Assembly (NCBI GenBank): GCA_019750455.1
Contig: JAIEOM010000034.1
Coordinates: forward strand, 1 to 52,104
DNA length: 52,104 nt
Direction: 5' to 3'
Source: Sphingomonadales bacterium
GTDB taxonomy: Bacteria; Pseudomonadota; Alphaproteobacteria; Sphingomonadales; Sphingomonadaceae
The notes below the pieces were generated by a model, which was not told where the DNA came from, did no database searches, and worked only from the letters and a program-made list of their open reading frames with translations. Every line of letters starts with the position of its first letter. Positions within the stretch are counted from its first letter, which is position 1. This document shows, piece after piece, positions 2,343 to 10,462 of the stretch. A program made the translations under genes and the position numbers.

Positions 2343-3257
2343 TTACTGGACCGCCAGACCGAACTGCATGCCGATCTTCTGGCCCAGCGTCTGGAGCGTG
2401 TCCTGAATGGTCGCGGGATGGTGGGCGTCCTCGAACGAGGTCACTTCGTTCCAGCGGTCCGCCAGGGCTTCGGCGGTCATCGACCCGTCCCGGAACATGG
2501 CGCCCTGCGCCTGCTCCCAGCGCAGCTTGGCGACCCATCCGCCGCCGACTTCGAACACGCCGCCATTCTCGCGCGAACTGTCGTGGCACAGCAGCGCAGC
2601 CAGCGGCGTGACATATTCCGGACCGAGCGCATCAAGCATCTGCTGCGGCATCACTGCCGCGGTCAGGCGCGAGGCTGCCGTCGGCGCGATGGTGTTGGTG
2701 AAGATCCCCTTGGCCGCACCCTCGACAGCGAGGGTATTGGCAAGCCCCACGATCCCGAGTTTCGCCGACGAGTAGTTGGCCTGCCCGAAATTGCCGTAGA
2801 GCCCCGCCGCCGACGTGGTCATCAGGATGCGGCCATACCCTGCGCCGCGCATCACATCCCAAGCGGCACGCGTGGTGCGATAGGTGCCGAGCAGGTGGAC
2901 GCGGTAGATGATGTCCCATGCATCATCACCGAGCTTGTGGAACGCGGTATCGCGCAGGATCCCGGCATTGTTGATCAGCACATCGACCCGGCCAAAGCTG
3001 TCCATCGCCTGCTGGATGATGCGCGCGCCATCCTCGACACTGTCGGTGTTGGCGATGGCGGTGCCGCCTGCGGCCTCGATCTCGCGGACGACCTGTGCGG
3101 CAACGCTGCCATCCGCGCCGTTGCCATCGCCAGCCCCGCCCAGATCATTGACGACCACTTGCGCGCCGCGGCGGGCAAATTCCATCGCGTGGCTTTTCCC
3201 CAGCCCGTTGCCGGCGCCGGTCACCACCACCACGCGGCCATCATAGCGAAGGTCCAT
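2343..3257 (-). CDS. SDR dehydrogenase resembling the (3R)-hydroxyacyl-CoA dehydrogenase domain of HSD17B4
   Basis: A 304-residue short-chain dehydrogenase. It has the cofactor glycine motif TGAGNGLG (13-20), the NNAG motif near 97, and the catalytic set Ser149, Tyr162, Lys166 (YSSAK). The early VVVNDLGG segment is typical of the peroxisomal D-bifunctional protein (HSD17B4/MFE-2) and its bacterial homologues, which oxidise (3R)-3-hydroxyacyl-CoA to 3-ketoacyl-CoA with NAD+. About 60 residues follow the usual SDR core, also as in that group. The start is well supported by AAGGAG 7 nt upstream. It lies between the acyl-CoA ligase and the TonB receptor in the same direction. The stereochemistry matches the MaoC-type hydratase made by the same arm. 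Exact substrate unknown. Confidence 0.88.
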   Translation of the reverse strand: MDLRYDGRVVVVTGAGNGLGKSHAMEFARRGAQVVVNDLGGAGDGNGADGSVAAQVVREIEAAGGTAIANTDSVEDGARIIQQAMDSFGRVDVLINNAGILRDTAFHKLGDDAWDIIYRVHLLGTYRTTRAAWDVMRGAGYGRILMTTSAAGLYGNFGQANYSSAKLGIVGLANTLAVEGAAKGIFTNTIAPTAASRLTAAVMPQQMLDALGPEYVTPLAALLCHDSSRENGGVFEVGGGWVAKLRWEQAQGAMFRDGSMTAEALADRWNEVTSFEDAHHPATIQDTLQTLGQKIGMQFGLAVQ

Positions 3258-3312: not shown

Positions 3313-4857
<1,545 letters not shown>

Positions 4858-4859
4858 GG

Positions 4860-5279
4860 TCAGCTGACCGCGACGACCGCTTCGCCGAGCAAGGTCTGCC
4901 GGCCATCCTGCGCGGCGGCTACGACCGCGATGCGAAGCCGGGTTTCGCCGTCCGCTTCGAACCGTTCGGTGACGGTGCCCGAGCAGTTGATCAGATCATG
5001 CACCTGCGTCATCGAAACGAACCGCGCACCGAAGCTGCGCAGACACCCGAGGCCAGCCCAGCGCGTGACCAATTGTGCAAGGCCGCCGAAAGACAGCATT
5101 CCGTGCGCGAACACATCGGGCAGCCCCGCCCTCTTGGCAAAATCGATGTCGATATGGGCCGGATTGTGATCGCCCGAGGCGCCCGCGTAGAGCGCCAGCA
5201 TGGCGCGCGTGACCGGACCGAAAGTCGTGCCGGGCAGCTGGTCGCCCACTTGTGCGGCCGCGAGATTTGCGTGAGCCAT
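4860..5279 (-). CDS. MaoC-type (R)-specific enoyl-CoA hydratase, catalytic half
   Basis: A 139-residue single-hotdog protein. The hydratase-2 motif ASGDHNPAHIDIDFAKRAGL contains the catalytic pair Asp37 and His42 (D-x4-H). An upstream TTG at 5303 would lengthen it, but GGGGAG sits 8 nt before the ATG at 5279, which I prefer. The family adds water to trans-2-enoyl-CoA to give (3R)-hydroxyacyl-CoA. Single-hotdog MaoC proteins of this kind usually pair with a partner. The partner is probably the next gene upstream (5296-5796), whose frame ends 16 nt before this start. Such two-gene hydratases are known from steroid and mycolate pathways (ChsH1/ChsH2, HadAB types). Pairing is inferred from context. 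Confidence 0.85.
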   Translation of the reverse strand: MAHANLAAAQVGDQLPGTTFGPVTRAMLALYAGASGDHNPAHIDIDFAKRAGLPDVFAHGMLSFGGLAQLVTRWAGLGCLRSFGARFVSMTQVHDLINCSGTVTERFEADGETRLRIAVVAAAQDGRQTLLGEAVVAVS

Positions 5280-5295: not shown

Positions 5296-5796
5296 TCAGC
5301 CAAGCCGGTGCAGCAGCGTGCGGGTGGCAGTGATCAGCGTGCCGCGCTCTGCGTGAGACACGGTGGCTTCGACCGTGACGAACTCCATCAGCCCGCCCTT
5401 CTTCTCGTAGAAGTCGATGATCTTCGTATCGAATTGCAGGGTGTCGCCGGCAAAAACGAGGCCGTGGTAGGCATAGCTTTCATCACCATGCAGCAGACGG
5501 CGGAAATCGCACTTGAGCAGTGTGATCAGCGAAGGTTGGCCAAGCCGTGCGCGTTCCTCATCGGCCATCGCCTCGATTGCCATGAAGAAGCTTGGCGGCG
5601 CTGGCAGGTCGGGATAGCCAGCGGCCTGCGCGGCTGCGATGTCGGAATGGACAGGATCGGTTTCCCCGAGCGCCTTGGCGAAGAAGCGGATACGCCCGCG
5701 CTCGACCTCGACCGAAACGGTCGGCAGGGCATGGCCCTTGGTCGCGCGATCGAAAAGCCCGGCAGGTTTGGCGGCAACGTCGGCCTGCGACATCAT
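5296..5796 (-). CDS. MaoC N-terminal-type hotdog protein (non-catalytic hydratase partner)
   Basis: A 166-residue protein of the MaoC_dehydrat_N / FAS1-like dehydratase type. Recognisable segments are IRFFAKALGETDPVHSD near residue 40 and the later YHGLVFAGDTLQFDTKI. It lacks the G-D-H-N-P-x-H hydratase motif seen in the next gene, so it probably forms the substrate-binding half of a heteromeric enoyl-CoA hydratase (inference from family precedent). It starts MM at 5796; GGGAG lies 4 nt before the first ATG and 7 nt before the second, so the real start may be 5793. It is the first gene of the five-gene minus arm, and the conserved 45-bp element at 5871-5915 lies about 75 bp upstream. Confidence 0.8.
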   Translation of the reverse strand: MMSQADVAAKPAGLFDRATKGHALPTVSVEVERGRIRFFAKALGETDPVHSDIAAAQAAGYPDLPAPPSFFMAIEAMADEERARLGQPSLITLLKCDFRRLLHGDESYAYHGLVFAGDTLQFDTKIIDFYEKKGGLMEFVTVEATVSHAERGTLITATRTLLHRLG

Positions 5797-5870
5797 CTGT
5801 CTCCCATTGGCCCCGTCCTGTTGGCGGAAGGTGGCCCGTTGGCGTCAGATGTGATCGGCGTGCGACAAAG

Positions 5871-5915
5871 CGTCCAATTCATTCTTGTTGGACACCATGA
5901 CTGATAGTCATGGCT
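5871..5915 (-). promoter_or_regulatory. Candidate LysR operator / promoter element, minus arm
   Basis: Read on the minus strand, this 45-bp element has a perfect palindrome CCATGACT-ATC-AGTCATGG (5895-5913) that fits the LysR T-N11-A pattern. At its downstream end is the block AATGAATTGGACG. Both blocks recur at the same spacing in the element at 6815-6859. It overlaps the lysR stop codon and ends 74 bp before the first hydratase gene. Sequence identity is observed directly; LysR binding is inferred. Confidence 0.65.
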
Positions 5916-6813
5916 AAACGGTGCGGGCGCGGCTCCGCATTTCGGCCAGAAACGCGCGCACAGCAGGCTTGGGGTCCCAGCGCGATCGGACGGCACAAGC
6001 CAGCGGGGACGGCGCGAAAGGGCTGACGTCCGTGATGATGCTGAAGCCGTTCGCAAACAGGGAAGTCGCAGCGAGTCCTGCGGTCGTAACCCCGATGGCA
6101 TCGGAGGTGGCGACGATCTGCCGGACGATCGAGAAATTGTCGATCACGTGGAGATGCTTGCGCCAATCGACGCCGCGCGATTCGTAGATTTCGCGGATGA
6201 CGACGCCGTAGGGCCGCGAATCCGTCGGGGTGATGAAGTCGTAATCGGCCAGATCCGCAATGCCGATCCCGGTGCGGCCGAGCAGCGGGTGCCCCTTTCG
6301 CACAAACAGCACGCCCTGCATTGTCGCCACCGGCTCGCGCCGCACATCGCTCCATTCCGCAAAGGCAGCATCGAACCCGAGCGCCACATCGACGCTGCCG
6401 TTGCGCAGCAGCCGGATCATCCTCTCGAAGCTCGATCCGATGACTTCGTAACGGATGCCGGGATGGCGGGCGAGCAGCGCGGCCAAGGGCTCGGCCAGCA
6501 GCCATTCGAGCGACGCGGGGCAAACGCCGACCCGCAGCGGTCCTGCATAGGGATCGCCGCGTTCTCGCGAGCCTTGCAGCAGCGATCGCGCGTCATCCAG
6601 CAGCCGCTCGGCCCGCTCGACGAAATCGCGCCCTTCCTCGGTCATCAATGCGCCGCGCGAGGTTCTGAAGAAGATCGCAAAACCCAGCTCGCGCTCTAGG
6701 TCGGCGATGCTCTTGGTGATGCCCGATTGGGTGAGACCGACGATCTCGGCCGCCCGTGTGAACGATCCACCATGGGCGACGGCTACGACATGATTGAGAC
6801 GCGGGTCCAGCAT
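5914..6813 (-). CDS. LysR-family transcriptional regulator of the beta-oxidation cluster
   Basis: A 299-residue LysR-type regulator. It has an N-terminal winged helix-turn-helix (about residues 5-60; segments FTRAAEIVGLTQSGITKSIA and FFRTSRGALMTEEG), a linker helix, and a periplasmic-binding-like effector domain from about residue 90. Regulators of this family usually bind T-N11-A sites and activate divergent genes when a pathway intermediate binds. Here the gene sits exactly between the two arms of the catabolic cluster, with near-identical 45-bp elements just outside its start and overlapping its stop. No clear Shine-Dalgarno sequence precedes the ATG. The upstream element begins 2 bp before the start codon, so autoregulation is likely (inference). 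Confidence 0.93.
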   Translation of the reverse strand: MLDPRLNHVVAVAHGGSFTRAAEIVGLTQSGITKSIADLERELGFAIFFRTSRGALMTEEGRDFVERAERLLDDARSLLQGSRERGDPYAGPLRVGVCPASLEWLLAEPLAALLARHPGIRYEVIGSSFERMIRLLRNGSVDVALGFDAAFAEWSDVRREPVATMQGVLFVRKGHPLLGRTGIGIADLADYDFITPTDSRPYGVVIREIYESRGVDWRKHLHVIDNFSIVRQIVATSDAIGVTTAGLAATSLFANGFSIITDVSPFAPSPLACAVRSRWDPKPAVRAFLAEMRSRARTV

Positions 6814-6814
6814 C

Positions 6815-6859
6815 AGCCATGACTAACAGGAATGAAAGGCCCGCACAATGAATTGGACG
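6815..6859 (+). promoter_or_regulatory. Candidate LysR operator / promoter element, plus arm
   Basis: Aligned without gaps to the minus-arm element it is identical at 32 of 45 positions. AGCCATGACTAnCAGnnATG matches at 17 of 20 positions, and AATGAATTGGACG at 13 of 13. The core ATGACTAACAGGAAT again gives T-N11-A, but its right half is imperfect. It lies between the lysR start and the acyl-CoA dehydrogenase start at 6952. Function inferred. Confidence 0.65.
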
Positions 6860-6951
6860 GGGCGCTGCCTGGCCTCCGAAAAGGCGGGCATACCAGCGCG
6901 CAGACAGGCGCGGCCGAAGTGCAATTTGCAGAAAAGATGCCGGGAGAGGAC

Positions 6952-8097
6952 ATGCTGAAGACCGACGGGCGCACCGCCTACAATGCGGATCACGAGATGT
7001 TTCGGGATACGGTGCGTAAATTCCTCGAACGCGAATTCCTGCCGCATTTCGATCAGTGGGAAGCCGATGGCATCATCGACCGTTCCTTCTGGTACGCCTG
7101 CGGCGAGGCGGGGCTGCTCTGCCCGACCGTTCCCGAAGAACTGGGCGGGCTTGGCCTCGACTTCCGCTACAATGCGATCATCGACGAGGAAATCGGCTAT
7201 GCCGCAGGCACGCTGTCAGGCACCTCGCTGCAATCGGACATCGTGGTCGACTACATCGTCGAATATGGCACCGACGAACAGAAGGCCGCTTATCTTCCCG
7301 GCATGATTTCGGGCGAGCTGATCACCGCCATCGCCATGACCGAGCCCGGCGCCGGCAGCGACCTTCAGGGCATCCGCACCACCGCACGCCGCGACGGCGA
7401 TCATTACGTCATCAACGGCGGCAAGACCTATATCACCAACGGCCAGAACGCCGATCTGGTGATCGTGGTGGCGAAGACCGATGCCAGCCTTGGCGCCAAG
7501 GGCACCTCGCTGATCCTGGTCGAAGCCTCGCGGGACGGGTTTACCAAGGGGCGCAATCTCGACAAGATCGGGCAGCATTCGGGCGATACGTCGGAACTGT
7601 TCTTCGAGGATGTGCGCGTGCCGGTTACGAACCTGCTGGGCGATGAGAACCGCGGGTTCATCTACCTGATGAGCCAGCTGGCGCAGGAACGCCTGTCGCT
7701 CGCCATCTCGGCGCAGGCCGCCGCCCAGCGCGCGTTTGACGAGGCGGTAGCTTTCACCAAGGACCGCAAGGCCTTTGGCAAGACCGTTTTCGACTTCCAG
7801 AATACCCGCTTCACGCTCGCCGATCTCAAGGCGAAGCTTCAGGTCGGCTGGGCCCATATCGACTGGGCGTTGCAGCGGCATATCGAAGGCAAGCTGACGG
7901 CTGACGAGGCTTCGGCTGCAAAGCTGTGGCACACCGAAACGCAGTGGCAGGTCGTCGATGCCGCGCTGCAGCTGCATGGCGGCGCGGGCTACATGAATGA
8001 ATATACCATCGCCCGCCTGTGGCGCGATGCACGGGTGCAACGCATCTATGGCGGCACATCGGAAATCATGAAGGAAATCGTGGGGCGCTCGCTGTGA
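6952..8097 (+). CDS. Acyl-CoA dehydrogenase (long-chain/branched-chain type)
   Basis: A 381-residue flavoenzyme that forms the trans-2-enoyl-CoA, the first oxidative step of beta-oxidation. Motifs include the FAD-contact segment AMTEPGAGSDLQG (about 128-140) and the C-terminal GGAGYMNEYTIARLWRDARVQ followed by YGGTSEIMKEI. Gly replaces the base Glu of the short/medium-chain YEGT motif. The base is therefore probably Glu246 in AQERL, as in long-chain and isovaleryl-CoA dehydrogenases. I place the start at 6952 because GGGAGAGG lies just upstream; in-frame ATGs at 6832 and 6937 are less likely, and the first falls inside the putative operator. Its stop overlaps the racemase start (GTGA). Confidence 0.92.
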   Translation: MLKTDGRTAYNADHEMFRDTVRKFLEREFLPHFDQWEADGIIDRSFWYACGEAGLLCPTVPEELGGLGLDFRYNAIIDEEIGYAAGTLSGTSLQSDIVVDYIVEYGTDEQKAAYLPGMISGELITAIAMTEPGAGSDLQGIRTTARRDGDHYVINGGKTYITNGQNADLVIVVAKTDASLGAKGTSLILVEASRDGFTKGRNLDKIGQHSGDTSELFFEDVRVPVTNLLGDENRGFIYLMSQLAQERLSLAISAQAAAQRAFDEAVAFTKDRKAFGKTVFDFQNTRFTLADLKAKLQVGWAHIDWALQRHIEGKLTADEASAAKLWHTETQWQVVDAALQLHGGAGYMNEYTIARLWRDARVQRIYGGTSEIMKEIVGRSL

Positions 8098-9236
8098 GCG
8101 GGCCTCTTTCCGGTATCCGCATCATCGAGATTGCGGGGATTGGCCCCGGGCCATTCTGCGGCATGATGCTCGCCGATCACGGCGCCGAAGTGATCCGCGT
8201 CGACCGACCGGGAGGACAGGCGCTGGTCGGCGATCCGGCCAAGGACTTGCTCAACCGCTCGCGCCTGTCCGTCATTATCGATTTGAAGAACCCCGCAGGC
8301 ATTGCCGCTGTCCGGCGGCTGGTGGCCTCTGCCGATGGCCTGATCGAAGGCTTTCGGCCCGGGGTGATGGAGCGGCTCGGGCTTGGCCCCGATGTGCTCC
8401 TCGCGGACAATTCGAAGCTGGTTTACGGACGCATGACGGGGTGGGGTCAGGATGGTCCCTATGCCCATGCCGCCGGTCACGATCTCAATTACATTGCGCT
8501 TTCAGGCGTGCTGGACGCCTGCGGCCGGGCCGGCGACAAGCCGACGCCGCCGATGAACCTGCTCGGCGATTTCGGCGGCGGCGGCATGATGCTCGCCTTC
8601 GGGATGGTCGCAGCACTTCTCTCAGCGCGCGGCACTGGCAAGGGACAGGTGGTCGATTGCGCCATGACCGATGGCAGCGCGGTGCTGGCAACGATGATCT
8701 GGAGCCTGCGCTCGAGCGGCCGCTGGAACGATGCGCGCGGCACCAACTTCCTCGATACCGGGGCGCATTTCTACGACTGCTATGAAAGCTCGGATGGCAA
8801 GTTCATTTCCGTCGCGCCGGTCGAACCGCAGTTCTATGCCGATCTGATTGCGCGGCTGGGTCTGGCGGAGGACAGCGATTTTCACGTCCAGAACGATCCC
8901 CGCGGCTGGCCTGCGTTGAAGGACAAGCTTGACGCCCTGTTCCGCACGCGCACGCGCGACGAATGGTGCGCGCTGCTCGAACATACCGACGCCTGCTTTG
9001 CGCCGGTCCTGTCGATGGCAGAGGCACCGTTGCATCCGCATAATCAGGCGCGCGGCACCTTTATCGAGGTGGACGGCATCACCCAGCCTGCGCCTGCACC
9101 GCGATACTCCGGCACGCCGACCGCGCTGCCGGTTCCGCTTGCCCATGATGCCGAGCGGATGCAGCCAATCTGGGCCGCACTCGGCTACACCGAGACCGAA
9201 CTTGAAACGTTGCAGGCCGCTGGCGTGATCGCCTGA
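8094..9236 (+). CDS. CaiB-family alpha-methylacyl-CoA racemase
   Basis: A 380-residue family III CoA-transferase-fold protein starting at a GTG that overlaps the preceding stop by 4 bp. It resembles alpha-methylacyl-CoA racemase rather than a transferase. His129 in AGHDLNYI, Asp159 in GDFGGGG and Glu244 in VEPQFYA have the same spacing (30 and 85 residues) as the catalytic His126/Asp156/Glu241 reported for the M. tuberculosis enzyme MCR. That family interconverts (2R)- and (2S)-2-methylacyl-CoA, needed because acyl-CoA dehydrogenases accept only the 2S form. Its presence implies that the pathway handles methyl-branched substrates. The transferase alternative cannot be fully excluded without assay. 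Confidence 0.85.
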   Translation: MSGPLSGIRIIEIAGIGPGPFCGMMLADHGAEVIRVDRPGGQALVGDPAKDLLNRSRLSVIIDLKNPAGIAAVRRLVASADGLIEGFRPGVMERLGLGPDVLLADNSKLVYGRMTGWGQDGPYAHAAGHDLNYIALSGVLDACGRAGDKPTPPMNLLGDFGGGGMMLAFGMVAALLSARGTGKGQVVDCAMTDGSAVLATMIWSLRSSGRWNDARGTNFLDTGAHFYDCYESSDGKFISVAPVEPQFYADLIARLGLAEDSDFHVQNDPRGWPALKDKLDALFRTRTRDEWCALLEHTDACFAPVLSMAEAPLHPHNQARGTFIEVDGITQPAPAPRYSGTPTALPVPLAHDAERMQPIWAALGYTETELETLQAAGVIA

Positions 9237-9265: not shown

Positions 9266-10462
9266 ATGTCTGCTCAATCCCGCGAAGTTCTGGTTGCCGG
9301 TGTCGGCATGGTGCCCTTCCTCAAGCCCAGTGCGGGAGCGACATACGACGAGCTTGGCCGGGCGGCGATCCAGCTGGCGCTGGCCGATGCCGGGATTTAC
9401 TATGCCAACGTCGAACAGGCCTATGCGGGCTACGTGTTCGGCGACAGCTGCTGCGGGCAGCGCGTGGTCTATGGCGCCGGAATGACGGGCATCCCGGTGA
9501 TCAACGTCAATAACAACTGTTCGACCGGGTCGACCGCACTGTTCCTCGCGCGGCAAGCGATTGCCTCGGGGGTGGCGGAATGTGTACTGGCAGTCGGCTT
9601 CGAACAGATGAACCCCGGCGCGATCGGCAGCGCCTATGCTGACCGCCCCAGCCCGTTTGCCGATTTCGATGCTGCTTGCGATGCGCTGGTCGATGTCGAA
9701 CTCCCCCTCGCACTGCGATACTTCGGCGGCGCCGGGCGCGAGCATATGGAGAAGTTCGGGAGCACGATCGAGGATTTCGCAAAGATCCGTGCCAAGGCAA
9801 GCCGCCATGCAGCCAAGAACCCTCTTTCCGTTTTCCGCGCCGAGATGACGGTCGAGGAAGTGCTGGGTTCGCAGGTTATCTGGCCCGGCGTAATGACCCG
9901 GCCGATGGCGTGCCCGCCCACGTGCGGAGGCGCTGCCGCCTTGCTGGTCTCGCGCGATTTCGCAAAGCGCCACGGGCTCGATCCGGCAGTCAGGATTGCG
10001 GCGCAGGCCATGGCCACAGACACGCCGGAGACGTTCGAGACCAACAGCATGATCGCTCTGGTCGGCGCTGACATGACCCGCCGTGCGTCACAAGCGGTCT
10101 ACGAAGCCGCAGGGATCGGTCCGCAGGATATCGGCGTGGTCGAACTGCACGATTGTTTCGCCCACAACGAACTCATCACCTATGAAGGCCTAGGTCTGTG
10201 CGGCGAAGGCGAGGCTCCGCAGTTCATCGCCGACGGCAACAACACCCATGGCGGGCGGATCGTCACCAATCCGTCTGGCGGGTTGCTCTCCAAGGGTCAT
10301 CCCCTCGGCGCGACGGGACTTGCACAGTGCTATGAGCTGACGCACCAGCTCCGCGGCACAGCCGAAGCGCGTCAGGTGGAAGGGGTGCGGCACGCGCTTC
10401 AGCACAACCTCGGCCTTGGAGGGGCTTGTGTTGTGACGCTCTATGAGAAAGCCCTCATCTGA
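9266..10462 (+). CDS. SCP2/SCPx-type thiolase (lipid-transfer-protein-like)
   Basis: A 398-residue thiolase-fold protein of the SCPx / Ltp group. The nucleophilic Cys85 is in NNNCSTGST. The catalytic histidines are His295 in ELHDCFAHNE and His345 in SKGHPLGATG. The family cleaves 3-ketoacyl-CoA, notably 2-methyl-branched ones in peroxisomes and in bacterial sterol side-chain degradation; some relatives act as aldol lyases, which is possible here. The start has GGAG 7 nt upstream and lies 29 nt after the racemase. It is the last gene of the plus arm. Confidence 0.9.
   Translation: MSAQSREVLVAGVGMVPFLKPSAGATYDELGRAAIQLALADAGIYYANVEQAYAGYVFGDSCCGQRVVYGAGMTGIPVINVNNNCSTGSTALFLARQAIASGVAECVLAVGFEQMNPGAIGSAYADRPSPFADFDAACDALVDVELPLALRYFGGAGREHMEKFGSTIEDFAKIRAKASRHAAKNPLSVFRAEMTVEEVLGSQVIWPGVMTRPMACPPTCGGAAALLVSRDFAKRHGLDPAVRIAAQAMATDTPETFETNSMIALVGADMTRRASQAVYEAAGIGPQDIGVVELHDCFAHNELITYEGLGLCGEGEAPQFIADGNNTHGGRIVTNPSGGLLSKGHPLGATGLAQCYELTHQLRGTAEARQVEGVRHALQHNLGLGGACVVTLYEKALI

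Follow-up and report, generated by a model that had tools for sequence, protein, structure and literature searches.

Two-block elements at either end of a lysR gene as probable operators of a branched-chain acyl-CoA pathway in Sphingomonadales

The window (the whole analysed stretch of 52,104 nucleotides from a Sphingomonadales bacterium) carries a lysR gene with a copy of the same 45-bp, two-block element at each of its ends. Judged from their sequence, position and recurrence near related lysR genes, these elements are very probably LysR operators that would serve the two promoters of a single branched-chain acyl-CoA beta-oxidation pathway. The preliminary description of this region is right in its observation, and largely right in its interpretation.

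Regulator gene, flanking arms and paired elements

The regulator gene and the two arms that flank it are organized as follows:

2343..3257, minus strand: MFE-2-like (R)-3-hydroxyacyl-CoA dehydrogenase, SDR family (Pfam; PDB matches)
3313..4857, minus strand: acyl-CoA ligase, AMP-binding (NF004837 cutoff passed; Pfam)
4860..5279, minus strand: MaoC-like hydratase, second gene of the minus arm (Pfam)
5296..5796, minus strand: MaoC-like hydratase (FAS1_DH_region), leading the minus arm and separated from element 1 by 74 bp
5914..6813, minus strand: lysR-type regulator gene, 299 aa (ORF; Pfam PF00126 (HTH_1) and PF03466 (LysR_substrate) above cutoff)
6952..8097, plus strand: acyl-CoA dehydrogenase, leading the plus arm and separated from element 2 by 92 bp (Pfam)
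8094..9236, plus strand: alpha-methylacyl-CoA racemase-like protein, CaiB/AMACR family (best PDB match 1x74 MCR, 388 bits)
9266..10462, plus strand: SCP2-type thiolase (best PDB match 6hsj (SCP2-thiolase type 1), 440 bits; NF006102 above cutoff)

The lysR product has the domain make-up of a LysR-type regulator, with HTH_1 at the N-terminus (59.7 bits, cutoff 26.6) and LysR_substrate at the C-terminus (108 bits, cutoff 28), and none of the 25 NCBIfam models listed for it (51 matched) reached its cutoff. On one side lie the MaoC, MaoC, acyl-CoA ligase and SDR genes (minus strand), and on the other the acyl-CoA dehydrogenase, CaiB-family and thiolase genes (plus strand), which jointly would amount to activation and one full beta-oxidation round of a 2-methyl-branched acyl-CoA. 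This pathway is suggested by the best solved relatives, namely alpha-methylacyl-CoA racemase, multifunctional enzyme 2 and SCP2-thiolase: in PDB searches, the SDR is closest to peroxisomal multifunctional enzyme 2 (2et6, 1gz6), and the CaiB-family protein matches the racemase 1x74 at 388 bits vs. 122 bits for the best non-racemase. By best PDB matches, the enzyme set is alike to that of peroxisomal branched-chain beta-oxidation (AMACR, MFE-2, SCP2-thiolase), whereas the window genes form bacterial operons.

The paired elements and their blocks are:

5871..5915, minus strand: element 1, a putative operator directed towards the MaoC-ligase-SDR arm (alignment, AAP60 comparison, motif)
5895..5913, minus strand: block 1 of element 1, perfect 8+8 palindrome, T-N11-A, putative recognition site (sequence; motif scores)
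5871..5883, minus strand: block 2 of element 1, AATGAATTGGACG, putative GAAT half-site and -35 region (sequence; motif)
6815..6859, plus strand: element 2, a putative operator directed towards the dehydrogenase-racemase-thiolase arm (alignment, AAP60 comparison, motif)
6817..6835, plus strand: block 1 of element 2, CCATGACTAACAGGAATGA, T-N11-A (sequence; motif)
6847..6859, plus strand: block 2 of element 2, AATGAATTGGACG (sequence; motif)

Aligned without gaps (reverse complement of 5871-5915 against the plus strand of 6815-6859), the elements are identical at 32 of 45 positions, with 17/20 in block 1, 13/13 in block 2 and equal spacing. This reproduces the match first reported for the region, which is the best of any inverted 45-mer pair in 5797-6951 and was reached in 0 of 200 Markov shuffles (mean 26.8, max 30). 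The other observations made at that time also hold: block 1 has the T-N11-A form in both elements, and at 5895-5913 it is the perfect 8+8 palindrome CCATGACT-N3-AGTCATGG; element 1 covers two bases of the lysR stop codon (TAG, 5916-5914) and element 2 starts 2 bp upstream of the start codon (ATG, 6813-6811, minus strand); and each copy faces one arm of the pathway, at the distances listed above for the MaoC and acyl-CoA dehydrogenase genes.

Within the 3.06-Mb genome, AATGAATTGGACG has three exact copies, two of them in elements 1 and 2, and CCATGACTANCAGNNATG occurs without mismatch at these two elements only. Elements 1 and 2 are also the only two matches to a 41-bp pattern at up to 3 mismatches, and at that threshold they are the whole predicted regulon of the searched genome.

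At E 1e-40, this lysR was present in two of the 61 genomes of a first set, the window's own included. Porphyrobacter sp. AAP60 encodes a LysR 95% identical to the window's in a region 85% identical. Its element 2 keeps 44 of 45 positions within an unbroken conserved run, as do 1% of 45-base windows, and the neighbouring intergenic DNA varies; element 1 keeps 41 of 45, as do 21% of windows, with block 2 and both palindrome arms unchanged. Conservation in AAP60 is thus strong for element 2 and, as a window average, unremarkable for element 1.

Recovery of the motif in related and remote loci

LysR relatives 40-54% identical were found in nine other genomes of the 397 in the family, and in one (G503) elsewhere in the order. 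We built a motif from ten distinct sites of clusters A (the window's own), B, E and F, setting aside the AAP60 copies (near-duplicates), a weak site at the lysR of cluster E and weaker matches. Clusters B, E and F hold a ligase, a thiolase, a dehydrogenase, an SDR and a racemase-like gene, and the paired blocks, on whose conservation in homologous clusters the preliminary description had staked its reading, proved to be conserved in all three as well as in remote loci. Both T6 and A18 of T-N11-A are found in 10/10 sites, as is GAATT in block 2. Block 1 reads ATGA-N5-AGGAATR (CATTCC-N5-GGAATA in several remote relatives), block 2 reads AWTGAATTNGAC with T[G/T]GAC present in 9/10 sites, and the spacing between them is nearly fixed at 12 bp (11-13 in remote relatives). 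The information content is 18.4 bits for block 2 and 17.8 bits for block 1. Sites precede catabolic transcription units and, in several clusters, are also found at the lysR 5' end.

When trained without the window cluster (i.e., on other genera, with LysR 44-48% identical), the motif recovered exactly elements 1 and 2 in 13 kb, with scores of 42.6 and 28.3 and the next match at 0.7. Leaving out one cluster at a time gave four sites in B (next 16.3), two in E (next 9.0), and two in F plus a weaker divergent third at 19.9. The best whole-locus matches to element 2 were 30/45 in B (at the lysR start), 33/45 in E and 32/45 in F, vs. ~23-26 elsewhere. The expectation that the two elements predict a regulon motif is thus borne out, as the motif finds further candidate promoters in related clusters.

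The two-sided switch initially proposed stands with a refinement. Each arm has one site, and the two flank lysR, but this bracketing is not the essence of the system since related clusters have one to four sites each, mostly in the same orientation and kilobases apart, and a lysR with a site on each side was seen only in the window and AAP60 among the clusters examined. Looping between the two elements may occur, but the same spacing and orientation show that it is no shared requirement, and it was rejected as the essence of the switch. In cluster F, two back-to-back sites lie between the racemase-like gene and the ligase (L084:7902-8003), one facing each.

Cluster B looks mobile, as judged from its lysR region, near-identical in seven genomes and mobilizable plasmid pYT40, and from its position on that plasmid (L096:15282-34770), where it adjoins IS6100. 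One of its four sites on pYT40 (21343, minus strand) is without block 1 and scores 16.2. The annotated LysR start on the plasmid (L096:17860-18909) lies upstream of the homologous start, so that the operator would fall inside the coding sequence, and is probably misplaced. Among the other cluster B genomes, G180 has only the lysR-racemase part in the stretch fetched, and the LysR copy at G067:C1:838668-839366 is reported with two in-frame stops, with four sites at ≤2 mismatches remaining.

The 41-bp pattern was searched in 80 genomes: 12 that encode this LysR or a relative, plus 68 in which no such gene matched at E 1e-35 (with at most 5 candidates scored per genome; these are G061-G133 minus two carriers and the low-completeness G070, G078 and G082). 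At ≤2 mismatches, it gave 33 matches, all within ~16 kb of the LysR gene, in 10 of the 12 carriers and none of the 68 non-carriers; three-mismatch matches occur in 8 of these 68. The reversed pattern had no match in any of the 80 genomes, and a spacer one base longer gave 0 matches in the 10 carriers among the 397 family genomes and 4 in others. A shorter pattern scanned at ≤1 mismatch in 230 genomes of the class gave 14 matches in 12 genomes, and the reversed control gave 5. Element 2 and the G597 site account for two of the 14, and we took the other 12 as chance; element 1 diverges too much to be picked up in this way, and G657 (spacer 13) was missed.

Carriers without ≤2-mismatch matches are G087 (cluster C, LysR 53-54% identical) and G503 (cluster D, 51-52%), and these are the main blemish on the operator reading, since in LysR sequence both stand nearer to the window than B does. 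G087 has no site beside lysR; its weaker sites (29.4, 21.4 and 15.5, 12-bp spacer) lie ~24 kb or more away, facing what appear from the translations to be a TPP enzyme, a CaiB-type gene and a TonB-receptor-like gene. Near its cluster, G503 has weak sites only (16.3, within the range of its shuffles), one of them 56 bp before its thiolase, and a 26.9 site on another contig is followed by no ORF of 120 aa. At lysR itself, no scoring site was found in clusters C, D, E and F or on a Cupriavidus plasmid.

Beyond these clusters, a remote set of six loci included all four LysR matches at 33-39% in other families of the class, the betaproteobacterial plasmid (40%) and the later-found G1054. With both strands and spacers of 4-23 considered, the top site was just upstream of the estimated lysR start, within ~25 bp, in five of the six, with spacers of 12 (three) and 13 (two); these are not five independent lineages (two are in one genus, two in one family), and at L099 the lysR-start site is tied with a spacer-4 match elsewhere in the locus. 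In G597 and G868, lysR faces a gene series (thiolase-MaoC-MaoC-dehydrogenase-SDR) resembling that of the window, with the best site in the gap; in G1054, which was identified only once the motif existed, a site likewise precedes the thiolase. On the Cupriavidus plasmid (the sixth locus), the site (38.3, spacer 11) is 5.6 kb from lysR, before an apparent alcohol dehydrogenase. Across 112,265 bases not picked by the motif pattern, top scores were 4.1, 18.1 and 14.1 (spacers 11, 12 and 13). The remote scores of 12.6-24.2 overlap this 18.1, which comes from a Streptomyces background locus retrieved through a LysR match of 53 residues; single scores below ~20 thus prove little alone, and position and spacing carry the argument at remote loci.

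Operator mechanism and alternative readings

As we picture it, a LysR tetramer would recognise and bind block 1, whose centre would lie near -63, and would also contact the GAAT half-site of block 2, abutting the -35 region. This GAAT repeats the GAAT of block 1 20 bp away, i.e., two helical turns on the same face. The proposed -35 hexamer, T[G/T]GACG within block 2, has its midpoint 30.5 bp from that of block 1, which places block 1 near -63 if this hexamer is the -35 element; the leaders are predicted at ~45 nt for the minus arm and ~63 nt for the plus arm. A sigma-70 promoter scan of 5700-7000 found none, hence the -35 and start sites are inferred; the lack of a match fits an activated promoter and is no proof of one. 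With inducer, probably a branched acyl-CoA or its acid since both arms together encode one branched-chain acyl-CoA beta-oxidation round, LysR would activate both promoters. Bound at element 2, it should also limit lysR transcription because this element abuts the lysR start, and a site overlapping the regulator's own 5' region is found in the window, in cluster B (at the lysR start) and in five of the six remote loci.

Block 2 is probably a regulator half-site joined to a -35 region, rather than a second full operator. A simpler reading, which we consider rather unlikely, is that block 1 alone is the LysR site and block 2 a conserved -35 of LysR-dependent promoters, read by the sigma factor. 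Block 2 does occupy the position that a recognition site near -65 would predict for a -35 hexamer, T[G/T]GAC resembles TTGAC, and the spacer varies from 11 to 13 among remote relatives; AATGAATTGGACG is also found 23 times in the genome at ≤2 mismatches, vs. 10 for the reversed pattern. However, at ≤1 mismatch it occurs just 4 times, which argues against a general promoter element, and conservation reaches a further six or seven bases beyond any hexamer on the upstream side (AWTGAAT), carries as much information as block 1 and includes the GAAT repeat of the block 1 half-site. It is thus tempting to speculate, if only tentatively, that proteins of this LysR lineage recognise operator and promoter as a single composite, in which a GAAT half-site is fused to the -35 and follows the palindrome in fixed helical phase, and that this may define a regulon-specific promoter class recognisable across Alphaproteobacteria and a betaproteobacterial plasmid.

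The remaining readings deny the LysR-operator role altogether. The elements could be recognised by a regulator encoded elsewhere, with lysR as a bystander, and the ~24 kb between lysR and the best sites of cluster C, the distant site of the Cupriavidus plasmid and the lack of a site at lysR in D, E and F would all suit this; we nevertheless think it very improbable, as sites at ≤2 mismatches track this LysR lineage, are absent from the 68 genomes without it, and adjoin the start of lysR in the window, in B and in five of six remote loci. Slightly less probable still is that element 1 acts at the RNA level, with the 3'-terminal part of the lysR mRNA forming a hairpin or terminator. Its minus-strand RNA (window 5861-5925) does fold into adjacent hairpins (-18.8 kcal/mol, z -2.18), but the palindrome was rejected as a terminator given neither a U-run nor a terminator call there, and the full palindrome is absent from element 2 and most related sites, yet block 2 stays in register; the hairpins may be a by-product of the palindrome or have a second role. 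That the resemblance reflects chance or a recent short-repeat duplication with no regulatory role is scarcely credible: in its favour, only two full copies exist in the genome, but the motif is recovered across genomes near LysR genes 33-48% identical.

Known LysR systems and a further copy of block 2

The two-operon arrangement has a tested precedent in the same order of bacteria and is thus not new. LigR of Novosphingobium aromaticivorans and Sphingobium lignivorans is a LysR-type activator of aromatic catabolism with two genomic sites, at the promoters of two flanking operons, footprints at about -51 to -85 that overlap T-N11-A, and the common sequence TT-N-GC-N6-TTAT (PMC12710314). The window LysR is alike in having two putative sites, one per flanking catabolic operon. 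In contrast, its predicted pathway is not aromatic catabolism, and the available part of the LigR account mentions no conserved second block (PMC12710314). By reading, the LigR sequence TT-N-GC-N6-TTAT is absent from our ten-site motif.

ThnR offers a second likeness, with several promoters per regulator and a primary site followed by a promoter-adjacent second one. This single LysR protein acts at no fewer than four promoters of tetralin degradation operons, where a primary site is accompanied by a second site adjoining the promoter and, at some promoters, by a conserved secondary sequence; it needs the co-activator ThnY and activates its own gene (PMC4834489). LysR secondary sites in general are called non-conserved in the introduction of that paper (PMC4834489), whereas block 2 of the window type is conserved across clusters. 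Classical LysR proteins with a divergent target have a recognition site near -65, overlapping the regulator's promoter, and an activation site near -35 (PMC4834489), a layout to which the window adds a second copy at the lysR 3' end, serving a co-directional operon.

Within the open-access literature, the regulon and its bipartite operator seem undescribed. They provide a cross-genome sequence signature by which this LysR regulon, with its predicted role in bacterial branched-chain acyl-CoA breakdown, can be read off genomes. Since block 2 matches the recognition half in conservation, they are also well suited to studying how sequence-specific the -35-adjacent activation site is.

Finally, the third exact copy of AATGAATTGGACG lies at G000:C281:37107-37119 (L040:1501-1513), flanked by a TCCAA/TTGGA pair. 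We rejected it as an operator and regard it as a coincidence, since block 1 is absent at the right spacing and the motif score there is never >9. The genes downstream of this copy (C281:37107) are presumably photosynthesis genes.
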